From: Rhodoferax sp.
Lineage (GTDB): Bacteria; Pseudomonadota; Gammaproteobacteria; Burkholderiales; Burkholderiaceae_C
Direction of reading: 5' to 3'
Length of the DNA stretch: 64,000 nt
Assembly: GCF_030697375.1 (NCBI RefSeq)
Contig: NZ_JAUYQD010000022.1
Span: 1 to 64,000 of the forward strand
Shown here: positions 35,404 through 46,763 of the stretch, in pieces
Numbering within the stretch: the stretch's first letter is position 1
Layout: each line of letters starts with the position of its first letter
The notes under the pieces: generated by a model
Told to the model about the DNA's origin: nothing
The model's input: the letters and a program-made list of their open reading frames with translations, nothing else
Database searches by the model: none
Position numbers and translations under genes: made by a program

Positions 35404-36036
35404 ATGATGATGAAGTTCAATTTGCGTCTTTGTGTTCTTGCCTTGTCGCTATCCGCCAGCGCCATGTCCCACGCCGCTGTGGAGTGGCGCAACGATGCCG
35501 CAGGGGTGTTGTCCATGAACGAGACCATTGTGGACAACCACAACAGTACCTGGACCTACAACTATTCCTTTTCCAACGTGCAAGAAGCCAACCCCATTTG
35601 GTGGGTGATCCTCTATACCAACACCGATGTCATGGCATCCACCTCGTTTGCGGACGCCTCCCATACCGGATGGAGCAACGCCTCCGGCAGCGGCAGCCAG
35701 AGTGGTATCCATGCGCCAGAAGGCCAATCCCACTACGTCTACAGTTGGAGCGCCAGCGATGCCTGGCCCAACAATGCACCGCACGGTATCGCGACAGGCC
35801 AGACCGTGGGCGGTTTTTCCTTCACCTCGACGCAATACGATGCCTCGTCCAAGCGTTTCGTAGCCGACCGCACACCCGAGTGGAGTGCGCCGCTAACCCA
35901 GAGTGGTGACCAGTCCTTCAGCTACGGTGGCATGACCACAGCCGTTCCCGAGCCAGAAACCTATGCCATGTTGTTGGCCGGTTTGGGTTTGATGGGCACC
36001 ATGGCACGTCGTCGCAAGCAGAAAACGACGGTTTGA
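35404..36036 (+). CDS. PEP-CTERM sorting domain-containing secreted protein
   Basis: N-terminal signal peptide; C-terminus VPEPETYAMLLAGLGLMGTMARRRKQK. Confidence 0.88.
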   Translation: MMMKFNLRLCVLALSLSASAMSHAAVEWRNDAAGVLSMNETIVDNHNSTWTYNYSFSNVQEANPIWWVILYTNTDVMASTSFADASHTGWSNASGSGSQSGIHAPEGQSHYVYSWSASDAWPNNAPHGIATGQTVGGFSFTSTQYDASSKRFVADRTPEWSAPLTQSGDQSFSYGGMTTAVPEPETYAMLLAGLGLMGTMARRRKQKTTV

Positions 36037-36057: not shown

Positions 36058-36086
36058 AAAAAGGGGGCTTTGGCCCCCTTTTTTTT
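36058..36086 (+). terminator. Rho-independent terminator
   Basis: AAAAAGGGGGC-TTTG-GCCCCCTTTTTTTT downstream of the PEP-CTERM gene. Confidence 0.9.
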
Positions 36087-36198
36087 GTGCCCAAAACTGC
36101 GCATTACTATCGCCGCTGACGGGGGCAGGCTCTGCGATCCTTGAGAAAAATATGTCGGGAAATTTAACAGTAGACCCAGGCTCCGTTACCCGCGTCCC

Positions 36199-36753
36199 GT
36201 GGAGTGGAGCCCCAAGTCGTTGATTTGGCTGAGGTTTTCAGCCGACGCAGACACCGTGCGTGGCTTGGTGTGTTTTTTGCATATCCCCGTGTCGCGCAAG
36301 CCATTCGCCCTTCAGTTGAACCGGGGAGTCAAAAAATTGGAAACCGCCGATTTACCGCGACACCTGTTGATTCACAGCCTGGTGGCGTCGCACGTTGAAA
36401 AATTTGCGGATGACGCCGTGAATCTATGGGACCTGTTGGCGACCCAACTCGTCTTGACCATCGGTGAAGCTGGCTTCAGTTCGATTTATGCGCGCAGTGT
36501 GTTCATTTGCCACGCAAGCTACCCCTGGCTGAAAGGAGGTGCCTTGTCACCGTATGGGAAACACCGTTTCGCGGAGTTGAAAAGCAGCCTGCAAGGTCAA
36601 CGGCCAGAAGACGCCAGCGCGGCCAACCGCTTGCTGCTGATCACGTTCACCGACATTCTGGCCTCGTTGATTGGTGAGTCTTTAACGGAGCGCATTGTGC
36701 GTTTGGCGTGGAGCCCTGCGGCCGGGGTGGCCAAGGAGTCTGAAAATGAATGA
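36199..36753 (+). CDS. Hypothetical protein, first gene of the KaiC-like operon
   Basis: 184 aa ORF overlapping the KaiC-like start by 8 bp; no family recognised. Confidence 0.6.
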   Translation: MEWSPKSLIWLRFSADADTVRGLVCFLHIPVSRKPFALQLNRGVKKLETADLPRHLLIHSLVASHVEKFADDAVNLWDLLATQLVLTIGEAGFSSIYARSVFICHASYPWLKGGALSPYGKHRFAELKSSLQGQRPEDASAANRLLLITFTDILASLIGESLTERIVRLAWSPAAGVAKESENE

Positions 36754-38236
36754 AAAAGTCACGATCCGTCGCCTCGCCACCGGGGTGTCCGGTCTGGACA
36801 ACCTGTTGGGTGGTGGCCTGCCGGAGTACTCATTCAACCTCATTGCGGGCTCGCCGGGCAGTGGCAAAACCACGCTGGCGCACCAGATCATGTTCGGGTT
36901 GGCGGGGCCGATGGTGCCGGCACTGTATTTCACGGTGTTGGGCGAGCCAGCCCTGAAGATGCTGCGTTACCAGCAGCAATTTCCGTTTTTTGACGCCGAC
37001 AAGGTCAATACGTCCGTCCGCTTCGTCAACCTGTCCGAAGACCTGCTGGAGGGTGATTTCGAGCGCGTCTTGTCGCGCATTGCCGAAGAGGTGAGAGGTT
37101 TTTCGCCTCGACTGGTCTTTGTCGATTCATTTCGGTCCGTGGTGCAGTCGGCCAAGCAAAAGAGTGAGTCCGAATTGGCGCGCTTTGTGCAACAGCTGGG
37201 CATCAAAATGACCAGTTGGCAGGCCACCACCTTTTTGATTGGTGAATACAGTGTGCAAGAGCTGGAGTCCAGCGCGATCTTTACGGTGGCTGACAGCATT
37301 TTGTGGCTGTCGCAGAACGTGTACCGCAACTCCATGATGCGCAAGATGCAGGTGGTCAAAATCCGGGGGCAAGCCCAGGCACCCGGTTTGCATACCTTTC
37401 GTATCAGCAACGACGGCATTCGGGTGTTCCCACGGGCGATCATCAAAGTGGGCGAGGCCATGAAAATCGATCGGGCGACCCCATTGGGCGCGCAACGCAC
37501 GTCGATGGGCATACCGGGCCTGGACGCCATGCTGGGTGGGGGCTTGCCCACGGGGTATTCGCTGCTGGTGGTCGGGCCATCGGGGGGTGGAAAAACCATT
37601 CTGGCCACCGAATTTCTGGCCGAAGGGGTGCGTTTGGGCGAGCACGGCGTGATGGCTGCGTTTGAGAAGAGTCCCAGCCAATTGCTGGGCAACAAGCGCC
37701 TGCTGCCGCTGGTGCAGGCTGGTAAGGTGGGCGTGATCGACACGCGTTCACTGGAATTGTCGATTGATGAAACCTTGCATGATTTGATCGACATGATCAA
37801 CCGCACGCACGCCAAGCGTGTCGTGATTGACTCCCTGTCCGGGTTTGAACTGGCGCTGGCACCGGAGTTCAGCGAAGACTTTCGCAGCTCGCTGTACCGG
37901 ATGGTGGCTGAACTCACCGGCATGGGCGTGACGATTTTGATGACCTCGGAACTGGAAGACCGCTACACCGATTTGCGCTTCAGCCCGTTTGGCAGTGCGT
38001 TTTTGGCCGACGCCATCATCGTGCAGCGCTATGTCGAAATGGTGGGCCAATTCAAACGCGCCCTCTCGGTCATCAAAGTCCGTGGCAGTGCACACAGCAA
38101 GGACATACGCTTGTTTGAGGTTACCGACGACGGCATTATTTTGGGCGACACCTTGTCTGACTATGGTGGCATCATGACCGGCCGGCCCACGCTCGGGTCG
38201 ATGCACCATCCATCTTTCGATGGCGATCGAATATGA
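36746..38236 (+). CDS. KaiC-like double-domain RecA/P-loop ATPase
   Basis: Two Walker A motifs (GSPGSGKTT, GPSGGGKTI); RLATGVSGLDNLLGGGLPEYSFNLIAG, TSMGIPGLDAMLGGGLPTGYSLLVVG, IKVRGSAHSKDIRLFEVTDDGI. Confidence 0.92.
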   Translation: MNEKVTIRRLATGVSGLDNLLGGGLPEYSFNLIAGSPGSGKTTLAHQIMFGLAGPMVPALYFTVLGEPALKMLRYQQQFPFFDADKVNTSVRFVNLSEDLLEGDFERVLSRIAEEVRGFSPRLVFVDSFRSVVQSAKQKSESELARFVQQLGIKMTSWQATTFLIGEYSVQELESSAIFTVADSILWLSQNVYRNSMMRKMQVVKIRGQAQAPGLHTFRISNDGIRVFPRAIIKVGEAMKIDRATPLGAQRTSMGIPGLDAMLGGGLPTGYSLLVVGPSGGGKTILATEFLAEGVRLGEHGVMAAFEKSPSQLLGNKRLLPLVQAGKVGVIDTRSLELSIDETLHDLIDMINRTHAKRVVIDSLSGFELALAPEFSEDFRSSLYRMVAELTGMGVTILMTSELEDRYTDLRFSPFGSAFLADAIIVQRYVEMVGQFKRALSVIKVRGSAHSKDIRLFEVTDDGIILGDTLSDYGGIMTGRPTLGSMHHPSFDGDRI

Positions 38237-39855
38237 AAAAAAGAAAATTGAAACAAAGGATCTACGCCAAGCAGTCCTGGTCATTGAAGCTGAAACGGCC
38301 AATGCAGCTGCGTGAGATTGCGATCCTGGCACGCGAAGTGGTGGTGCAGTTGCGTGAAAACAAGGCGGATGGAAGAGATGGAACGGCCTCTGCCCGCGAA
38401 CGGGCGATTCTGGCTGCCGAGGCCGGGCAGGCCATGTCTGAAGACCAGATACAGTTGTTGAAGCAGACGAACGCCCACCTGGTCATCGCTACGATGGAAT
38501 CGCTCAGGCTGACCGAACAAGTTGAAATGGCCAGAGTGGAACTGGACCACCTGGCGCACCACGACCCGCTCACCGATTTGCCCAATCGCATACTGATGCA
38601 AGACCGGTTGGGCCAGGCCATTGAGGCAGCGCGGCGTCAAGGTCGACAACTGGCGGTGATCTATATGGACCTGGACCGCTTCAAACACATCAACGATTCC
38701 CTGGGGCATGCGGTAGGCGACCAATTGCTGCGCTCGGTGGCACAACGCCTGGTGGCCTGTGTGCGCCACTCGGACACGGTCAGCCGCCAGGGCGGGGATG
38801 AGTTCGTGTTGCTGCTGCCCTTGATTGAGCACGCCGAAGATGCTGCGTTGTCGGCGCAAAAAATGCTTGGGGCGCTTGCGCAGCCCCATCACATCGATGA
38901 CCACGATCTCTATGTCAGCGTGAGTATTGGCATCGGCATCTTCCCTAACGATGGGCAAGATGCAGAAGCTTTGGTCAAGAGTGCGGACGCCGCCATGTAC
39001 TACGCCAAGGAGACCGGGCGCAACAATTACAAGTTTTTCGAGTCGGGCATGAATCTGCGGGCCATCCAGCGGCAATCCATTGAGGCCAGCCTGCGCAAGG
39101 CTTTGGATCAGCAAGAATTTGCCTTGTATTACCAGCCCAAAGTCAATCTGGTCAGCGGCGCCGTGGTGGGGGTGGAGGCGCTCATCCGCTGGCAGCACCC
39201 GGAACAAGGCCTGCTGCAGCCCTCGCATTTTGTGGCCATTGCCGAAGACTGTGGCCTGATTTTGCCGATTGGCCGCTGGGTGCTGCGCGAAGCCTGTCTG
39301 CAGGCCCAGGCCTGGCAGCAAATGGGCCTGCCGCCGATCACCATGGCCGTCAACACCTCTGCGACCGAGTTCCGCGACCGCGATTTTCTGTACAACTTGC
39401 GCACGACGCTGGATGAAACCCATTTCGATCCGCACTGTCTGGAGCTTGAGTTGACGGAAGGTGTCCTCATGCAGGAAGCCGAGTCCACCCATATCGTGTT
39501 GCATGCGCTGGCCGACTTGGGCGTGCAGTTGGCGGTCGATGACTTTGGAACGGGGTATTCCAGCCTGAGCTACCTGAGCCGGTTCCCGATTGACACCCTG
39601 AAGATCGACCAGTCGTTTATCAGCCATATGAGCGCCAATCCGGACGATGCCGCCATTGTCAGCGCCGTGATCAGCATGGGTAAAAGCCTCAATCAACGCG
39701 TTATTGCGGAGGGGGTGGAGACACCCGCGCAGCTGGCTTTTTTGCTGGCCCAGCACTGTGATGAGGGCCAAGGCTTTTATTTCAGCCGTCCGGTCACGGC
39801 GCAGGCCTTTGCCAGCTTGCTGCAAACGGGTAGGCTTGCGGCACATCTGCCCTGA
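38233..39855 (+). CDS. GGDEF-EAL bifunctional c-di-GMP protein
   Basis: RHSDTVSRQGGDEF (intact I-site RxxD and GGDEF), VEALIRW, LELTEGVL, DDFGTGYSSLSYL, EGVET; ATGA overlap with KaiC-like gene. Confidence 0.94.
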   Translation: MKKRKLKQRIYAKQSWSLKLKRPMQLREIAILAREVVVQLRENKADGRDGTASARERAILAAEAGQAMSEDQIQLLKQTNAHLVIATMESLRLTEQVEMARVELDHLAHHDPLTDLPNRILMQDRLGQAIEAARRQGRQLAVIYMDLDRFKHINDSLGHAVGDQLLRSVAQRLVACVRHSDTVSRQGGDEFVLLLPLIEHAEDAALSAQKMLGALAQPHHIDDHDLYVSVSIGIGIFPNDGQDAEALVKSADAAMYYAKETGRNNYKFFESGMNLRAIQRQSIEASLRKALDQQEFALYYQPKVNLVSGAVVGVEALIRWQHPEQGLLQPSHFVAIAEDCGLILPIGRWVLREACLQAQAWQQMGLPPITMAVNTSATEFRDRDFLYNLRTTLDETHFDPHCLELELTEGVLMQEAESTHIVLHALADLGVQLAVDDFGTGYSSLSYLSRFPIDTLKIDQSFISHMSANPDDAAIVSAVISMGKSLNQRVIAEGVETPAQLAFLLAQHCDEGQGFYFSRPVTAQAFASLLQTGRLAAHLP

Positions 39856-45416: not shown

Positions 45417-46655
45417 CTACACGTGTACAGCGTGTTGTGCAAATGCTTGCGCCCATGGCGCGATGCTGCTTGCGGGCATGGGCCGTGCATAGTGGTAGCC
45501 CTGCGCATAGGTGCATCCCATGCTGGCGAGCGCCGCCCCGGTAGCGGCGTCTTCAATTCCCTCGGCCACGGTTGTGATATCCAGCAACCGTGACAGCTCC
45601 AGAGCCGATTTGATGATTTGGAAACTGCGTTCCGAAGTGTGCATTTGCTGCACGAAAGTTTTGTCAATTTTGATACACGAAAACGGCAGGGTTTGCAGGT
45701 AACTCAAGCCTGCATAGCCGGTCCCAAAATCATCCAGGGCAATGCCCACGCCCATGGCGCGCAGCTGATGCAGCGCGGCAGACACGGCGTCTAGGTTGCT
45801 AATGACAATGGTTTCGGTCAGTTCGATACGCAGCTCCTGGGGCTGCATGTGGTGTTCTTGCATACACACCTGAATACTTTCAACAATGCCGGGCCCGCAA
45901 AGCTCTGGGGCAGAGAGATTGACGCTCATGAACGGACTGTGGCGCCTGTCCGAAACACACAGCGTGCGCAGCTCTGGCCAATCGGTGGCGGCCTGGTTCA
46001 GCACCCACTGTCCAATCCGGTGAATCAACCCTGTTTTTTCGGCAAGCGGAATGAATTCCTCTGGGCTGACCATGCCCAACTGGGGATGGTGCCAGCGGAT
46101 CAGCGCCTCAAAACCGACGAGGGCCGCATCGCCGTACAAAATAATGGGCTGGTAAAACAACTCCAACTGGCTGTTGTCAATCGCATCTGACAGGTCGTGC
46201 GCCAACGAGAGTGTGCGCACGGCCGCCGCATGCAGGTCCACTGTTGGCAGTGCCGCTATGGTCGTGGTTTTGCGCTCTAAAGGCAGCGCCTCGGCGCAAG
46301 CGGGTTCCGCGCTGGAGTTGCGAAAACGCTCCAGCATCAAGCGCAAGAGGTATTGGATGACGGGATCCGCGCGGACCAGCAGTTCTTCGACATGGGCTCG
46401 GTCGATGCGCACCAGGCTGGTGGGAACCAAGGTCCGCACCGTGGCCGTGCGGGGCTGGCGGTCCAGCAGGGCCACCTCGCCGAACATGGCACCTTCGGCC
46501 AGCACCGCCACGCGCCGCTGGTCGGCTCCAGCCAACACTTCAACGCAACCACTCTCGATCACATAGGCAGCGTCGCCAGAATCCCCATTTTTGAAAACGG
46601 TGGTCTGTCCTTCGAACTGTTCGCGTGTGAAACCGTTGGCAATTTTTATCATCAT
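45417..46655 (-). CDS. Cyclic-nucleotide-binding domain fused to EAL c-di-GMP phosphodiesterase
   Basis: N-terminal cNMP domain (GDSGDAAYVIESGCVEVL, GAMFGEVALLDRQPRTATVRTL) and intact EAL motifs (FEALIRW, IELTET, DDFGTGYAG, KIDKTF, AEGIED). Confidence 0.9.
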   Translation of the reverse strand: MMIKIANGFTREQFEGQTTVFKNGDSGDAAYVIESGCVEVLAGADQRRVAVLAEGAMFGEVALLDRQPRTATVRTLVPTSLVRIDRAHVEELLVRADPVIQYLLRLMLERFRNSSAEPACAEALPLERKTTTIAALPTVDLHAAAVRTLSLAHDLSDAIDNSQLELFYQPIILYGDAALVGFEALIRWHHPQLGMVSPEEFIPLAEKTGLIHRIGQWVLNQAATDWPELRTLCVSDRRHSPFMSVNLSAPELCGPGIVESIQVCMQEHHMQPQELRIELTETIVISNLDAVSAALHQLRAMGVGIALDDFGTGYAGLSYLQTLPFSCIKIDKTFVQQMHTSERSFQIIKSALELSRLLDITTVAEGIEDAATGAALASMGCTYAQGYHYARPMPASSIAPWAQAFAQHAVHV

Positions 46656-46763
46656 CACCCCTCGTTCGTGCAGCGTGCATTGTGACTCGGATTCAACCCT
46701 GCCATGGGTTTGACCTCCCTGCACCCGCTTGACACAACGCTGGAAGCAAGAAAAATTCATTGC

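Follow-up and report, generated by a model that had tools for sequence, protein, structure and literature searches.

A three-gene cassette encoding a small helical protein (A), a KaiC-family ATPase (B) and a GGDEF-EAL protein (C) was found on the plus strand of the window, the 64,000-nucleotide stretch of DNA analysed here, which belongs to a genome of 5.78 Mb. The strong adjacency of these genes in relatives and their co-occurrence with output genes that carry a common helical module provide good support, at the level of gene content and order, for a functional link between A, the ATPase and the module-bearing outputs, among them the c-di-GMP enzyme C. We consider it somewhat probable that A-B-C is a mobile cassette in which B works as a phosphorylation-independent KaiC switch with A as its partner, and in which the outputs dock by means of the shared helix. 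The annotated features are listed below with the evidence for each.

36337..36753, plus strand: gene A, 138-aa all-helical orphan protein with a probable TTG start (68-member alignment, start comparison, GGGGAG upstream)
36746..38236, plus strand: gene B, double-RecA-domain KaiC-family ATPase of 496 aa (PF06745, 80 relatives, site table, alignment to solved KaiC)
38233..39855, plus strand: gene C, GGDEF-EAL protein of 540 aa with I-site and catalytic motifs intact (PF00990, PF00563, motif conservation)
38311..38547, plus strand: shared helical module near the N-terminus of C, 79 residues, C residues 27-105 (alignment, single genome copy, continuous predicted helix)
36746..36753, plus strand: A/B overlap, with the B start within the A end (direct reading of the sequence)
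38233..38236, plus strand: B/C stop-start overlap ATGA (direct reading of the sequence)

The overlaps between three plus-strand reading frames that the sequence-only reading had reported were thus seen directly, and the A/B spacing of -8 was found to be repeated in many relatives when the loci were compared. The ATG of B at 36746 is preceded by AAGGAG, and the Shine-Dalgarno sequence of C is weak, which fits translational coupling. A promoter scan was uninformative, with one promoter found against 1.1 expected. The 184-aa frame earlier given for A, which begins at the GTG at 36199 (36199-36753), was over-extended, as the orthologues are about 132-146 aa long, have an ATG start that gives about 139-140 aa and mostly become alignable from about residue 47 of this frame. 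The start that matches them is the TTG at 36337, with GGGGAG a few bases upstream, and this comparison indicates that the conserved start is probably this TTG instead of the GTG. PADLOC returned no match for A and C on the cassette and only weak generic ATPase matches for B.

A gene for a PEP-CTERM protein (35404-36036) lies just upstream of the operon. Its linkage to the operon was rejected because its upstream position is not conserved across loci; ten upstream neighbours assigned by Pfam include Crp-like regulators, TldD/PmbA, a pseudouridine synthase, a transaldolase and others, and those in Oxalobacteraceae-type loci are hybrid kinases. Inspection by eye shows a terminator-like hairpin at about 36060-36087 that ends in a T-run and was not listed by the terminator scanner; it appears to separate the PEP-CTERM gene from the operon.

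Eighty loci with B relatives at 62-80% identity were found in a genome scan, most of them from beta- and gammaproteobacteria and one carrying the label Geobacter, and these together with the window form a set of 81 loci. As the eighty loci were chosen by B alone, the presence of A in them is an independent observation, and an A homologue immediately precedes B in all 81, window included. The homologue is split between frames in two loci (L026 and L028), perhaps by a frameshift or an assembly error. A module-bearing neighbour was counted by domain tally in 72 of the 81 loci, again including the window, and lies either upstream or downstream of A-B; it is a hybrid histidine kinase only, a GGDEF-EAL protein only, or both. 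In two of the 72 module-positive loci (L008 and L023) the ORF that carries the module is truncated, and for the remaining nine of the 81 loci no neighbour in reach carries it. Among more distant members, for example G174 and G017, B was found with a REC-GGDEF-EAL neighbour or A was undetected. The gene-neighbourhood survey, for which unconserved adjacency had been named beforehand as evidence against an A-B-C partnership, found strong adjacency and a set that co-occurs. The expectation of a conserved three-gene order holds for A-B at every locus but not for the third gene, which varies between the two types of output. The distances of A and B among these relatives are correlated (r=0.86; 0/999 permutations), as is expected for any linked genes, so that the correlation indicates joint travel and is no proof of contact. 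In two loci (L140:6133-7512, from G128, and L078) the B homologue was observed to be without model positions 149-192 while its frame is open; this internally shortened B may be a deletion variant or a misassembly.

The B family was found in none of 88 congeners, where the matches are far weaker, and strong B matches were found in seven of 274 genomes of the class, one of them interrupted. Since 0/88 congeners carry the cassette, it was probably acquired horizontally. It adjoins the conserved serS-ispH-FKBP-radC-smr block, which can be seen in full or in part in five congeners that have neither A nor B, and the local GC at the cassette is about 0.57 as compared to 0.62-0.66. At the same spot beside smr, a congener without A-B has a different GGDEF-EAL protein (L161:8787-10052; 45% to C).

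Many of the loci encode a further protein whose match to C is confined to residues 27-105, and these proteins were identified by Pfam as hybrid histidine kinases with HisKA-HATPase-REC architecture. Iterated profile searches found the module both in kinases and in GGDEF-EAL proteins adjoining A-B. In the alignment, the module in the C protein of the window comprises an RE-rich repeat and a NAHLVIATIEAHKLAEQVE-type motif, and across the aligned copies a conserved LQQANAHLVIATIEAHKLAEQVE-type motif follows the RE-rich repeat. The AF2 model presents the module as a single continuous helix (pLDDT 96.8), behind which the outputs are swapped between HisKA-HATPase-REC, GGDEF-EAL and GGDEF..HATPase. 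The last of these, L136:10663-12354 (G367), is an unusual architecture beside A-B with GGDEF and then a HATPase domain within one protein.

The module is a coiled coil, a type that can serve as a generic signalling linker, and its specificity was assessed by profile search at E<=0.001. The window's own genome has one module match, in C, despite 78 GGDEF matches; twenty further genomes gave six matches in five genomes, all of which are B carriers, with each match adjoining A-B, and the module was absent from 12 congeners without B. The module as a generic Burkholderiales linker is unsupported, as there is a single copy in the own genome and elsewhere it occurs only beside A-B. These counts also bear on the explanation that the genes co-travel for regulatory or transfer reasons only, by a shared promoter or as a mobile cassette, with C being independent of B. 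The patchy distribution and the insertion beside smr are in keeping with such co-travel, and most GGDEF-EAL proteins work alone. However, the cassette-specific module occurs on two unrelated output enzymes and nowhere else in the tested genomes, which speaks against it, and we regard co-travel alone as quite unlikely.

C matches PF00990 (9.8e-54) and PF00563 (5.9e-75). Its RxxD I-site (RHSD), GGDEF and EAL motifs, which had been read as intact, are indeed so together with further EAL-domain motifs, and they are conserved in 10 orthologues. On the basis of these motifs C could be bifunctional, making and/or breaking c-di-GMP. A candidate second c-di-GMP gene lies within 6 kb, as the frame at 45417-46760 on the minus strand of the window looks by eye like a cyclic-nucleotide-binding and EAL protein.

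Membership of B in the KaiC ATPase superfamily was evident from a match to PF06745 in two stretches (1.3e-66). The P-loop glycines and lysine are retained in all 81 B proteins and both Walker A motifs are intact. When B was aligned with solved KaiC chains, the phosphosites S431/T432 were found to align to A418/F419, and in the B family position 418 is alanine in 80 of the 81 proteins whereas position 419 is phenylalanine in all of them. The catalytic glutamate pairs are GE in CI and EK or EQ in CII instead of EE. Other KaiC homologues in the survey, two of them adjoining kaiB, mostly retain S/T/Y phosphosites and EE pairs, and the phosphosite residues of KaiB-linked or distant KaiCs are ST, SS or SY in most cases. 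B also falls below the circadian KaiC cut-offs, with 150.8 against 546 bits for TIGR02655 and 234.5 against 408 bits for NF006799. KaiA and KaiB, noted earlier as not seen in the window, were not found in the whole genome either (an S. elongatus control was positive for KaiA), and of 21 other carriers, 19 were without KaiB and two had it. Judged by its residues and genome, B is no clock KaiC, because the phosphosites are Ala/Phe, the EE pairs are changed and the genome is without KaiA and KaiB.

These observations divide the proposal that the ATPase acts as a switch or timer controlling c-di-GMP: a switch is plausible, whereas a timer or oscillator is unsupported in view of the Ala/Phe positions and the missing KaiA and KaiB. 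A KaiC-based timer or hourglass, in which B keeps time and gates c-di-GMP while A substitutes for KaiA/KaiB, could appeal to the homology of B to KaiC and to the canonical kaiC-kaiB cluster that adjoins A-B in two genomes (L136 and L138). The loss of the phosphosites throughout the B family, the distribution of KaiA and KaiB given above, and a protein A that resembles neither of them by sequence or fold leave such a timer very improbable. The canonical-looking clusters (L138:10338-14543 and L136:3130-7394) have PAS/GAF or HK neighbours, and L136 contains two kaiB genes in tandem.

No significant Pfam match was found in 68 A members, KaiA (PF07688) and KaiB (PF07689) included, and NCBIfam likewise gave no match for A. 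Comparison with the sequences of solved structures found no relative, the one hit being a designed protein (E=0.018), and a PDB fold search of the A model found no match (best E=3.4), with KaiA not among the entries listed. The AF2 model of A is all-helical (pLDDT 81) and in this respect unlike KaiB. A KaiA-like or KaiB-like identity of A was rejected on the Pfam, PDB sequence and fold searches, and the idea of A as a KaiB-like partner is accordingly unsupported. Three positions (G43, R53 and G113) are invariant in the 68-member alignment and three tryptophans (W31, W64 and W125) are near-invariant.

An A-like domain fused via a coiled-coil-looking stretch to GGDEF was found in G155 (L133:6046-7140), and the surrounding 12 kb that were read contain no B relative. 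Going by its domain make-up, this fusion would be a single but direct link of A to c-di-GMP. It also favours a different division of labour, in which A would act as sensor for the output enzyme and would pair in signalling with C (or with the kinase), while their assembly or resetting would fall to B as a chaperone-like or recycling ATPase. The fusion is, however, known from a single example, and A lies beside B at every locus, even at those without a module-bearing neighbour in reach; this arrangement therefore seems unlikely to us.

The phosphorylation-independent switch that we prefer can be outlined as follows. B would, by homology, assemble into a hexamer that switches its conformation as ATP is bound and hydrolysed, with the autophosphorylation cycle of KaiC left out. 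A, as an obligate small helical partner, would sense an input or set the ATPase state of B. The outputs, either the hybrid histidine kinase or here C, would dock on B and/or A via the shared N-terminal coiled-coil or signalling helix, which would then pass the state of B on to the catalytic domains. The output in the genome of the window would be c-di-GMP synthesis or breakdown. Family knowledge and the anatomy of the proteins suggest these roles for B as an ATP-driven switch, A as a partner and the helix as a docking element.

The kaiC genes were sorted into three contexts by De Luca et al. 2011 (PMC3164672). The third ('black') group, described there as heterogeneous, contains KaiC homologues that have at most one phosphosite and are encoded near REC, HK or GGDEF/EAL genes, and the phosphosite profile AF is listed in it (PMC3164672). 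B belongs with this group when judged on its phosphosites, its signalling-gene context and the absence of a kaiB requirement, and the broad association of phosphosite-poor KaiC with REC, HK, GGDEF and EAL genes is thus already known from the 2011 paper. The passages of that paper cited here differ from our cassette in that they have neither a conserved upstream partner nor an N-terminal module common to the HK and GGDEF-EAL neighbours. The first context group, non-cyanobacterial kaiC-kaiB clusters, similarly has HK or GGDEF/EAL genes downstream and a possible c-di-GMP output, but it has KaiB and a phosphorylable KaiC, as far as these passages describe it, and the cassette has neither. In the kaiC-Nt_HK operon of Ramlibacter tataouinensis (Rta_04330/04340, PMC3164672), kaiC is likewise followed, without kaiB, by an HK for which binding to KaiC via the N-terminal region has been proposed. 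According to the same passages, that KaiC has two phosphorylable residues and the RtaNt module is KaiB/SasA-like, whereas the cassette has a helical module and the added protein A.

The cassette shares with cyanobacterial KaiABC-SasA a KaiC-family double RecA ATPase and an output enzyme that may dock via an N-terminal domain. It differs in being without KaiA, KaiB and phosphosites, in its changed EE pairs and in its c-di-GMP output, and the KaiB-like N-terminal domain of SasA has as its counterpart the one continuous helix of the AF2 model. Depletion of c-di-GMP shifts the clock in Synechococcus, an effect that appears not to involve direct binding to Kai proteins (PMC13001216). No study of this operon came up when the literature was searched for KaiC together with GGDEF, diguanylate cyclase or EAL, and in relation to the portions of the 2011 paper considered above, neither protein A nor the shared module seems to have been described so far. 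We tentatively suggest, at slightly less than even confidence, that the cassette represents a distinct KaiC class with a phosphorylation-independent ATPase, a dedicated orphan partner A in place of KaiA/KaiB, and a plug-in helical docking module through which one ATPase drives outputs that can be exchanged (phosphorelay or c-di-GMP), the whole having spread as a mobile unit.

Non-cyanobacterial KaiC homologues are common and mostly unexplained. The cassette provides a minimal and testable example of KaiC without clock phosphorylation, consisting of one ATPase, one partner and one measurable product, c-di-GMP. The module predicts the docking site of the outputs, and the replacement of a histidine kinase by a GGDEF-EAL protein behind one and the same helix would be an instance of signalling rewired in modular fashion.
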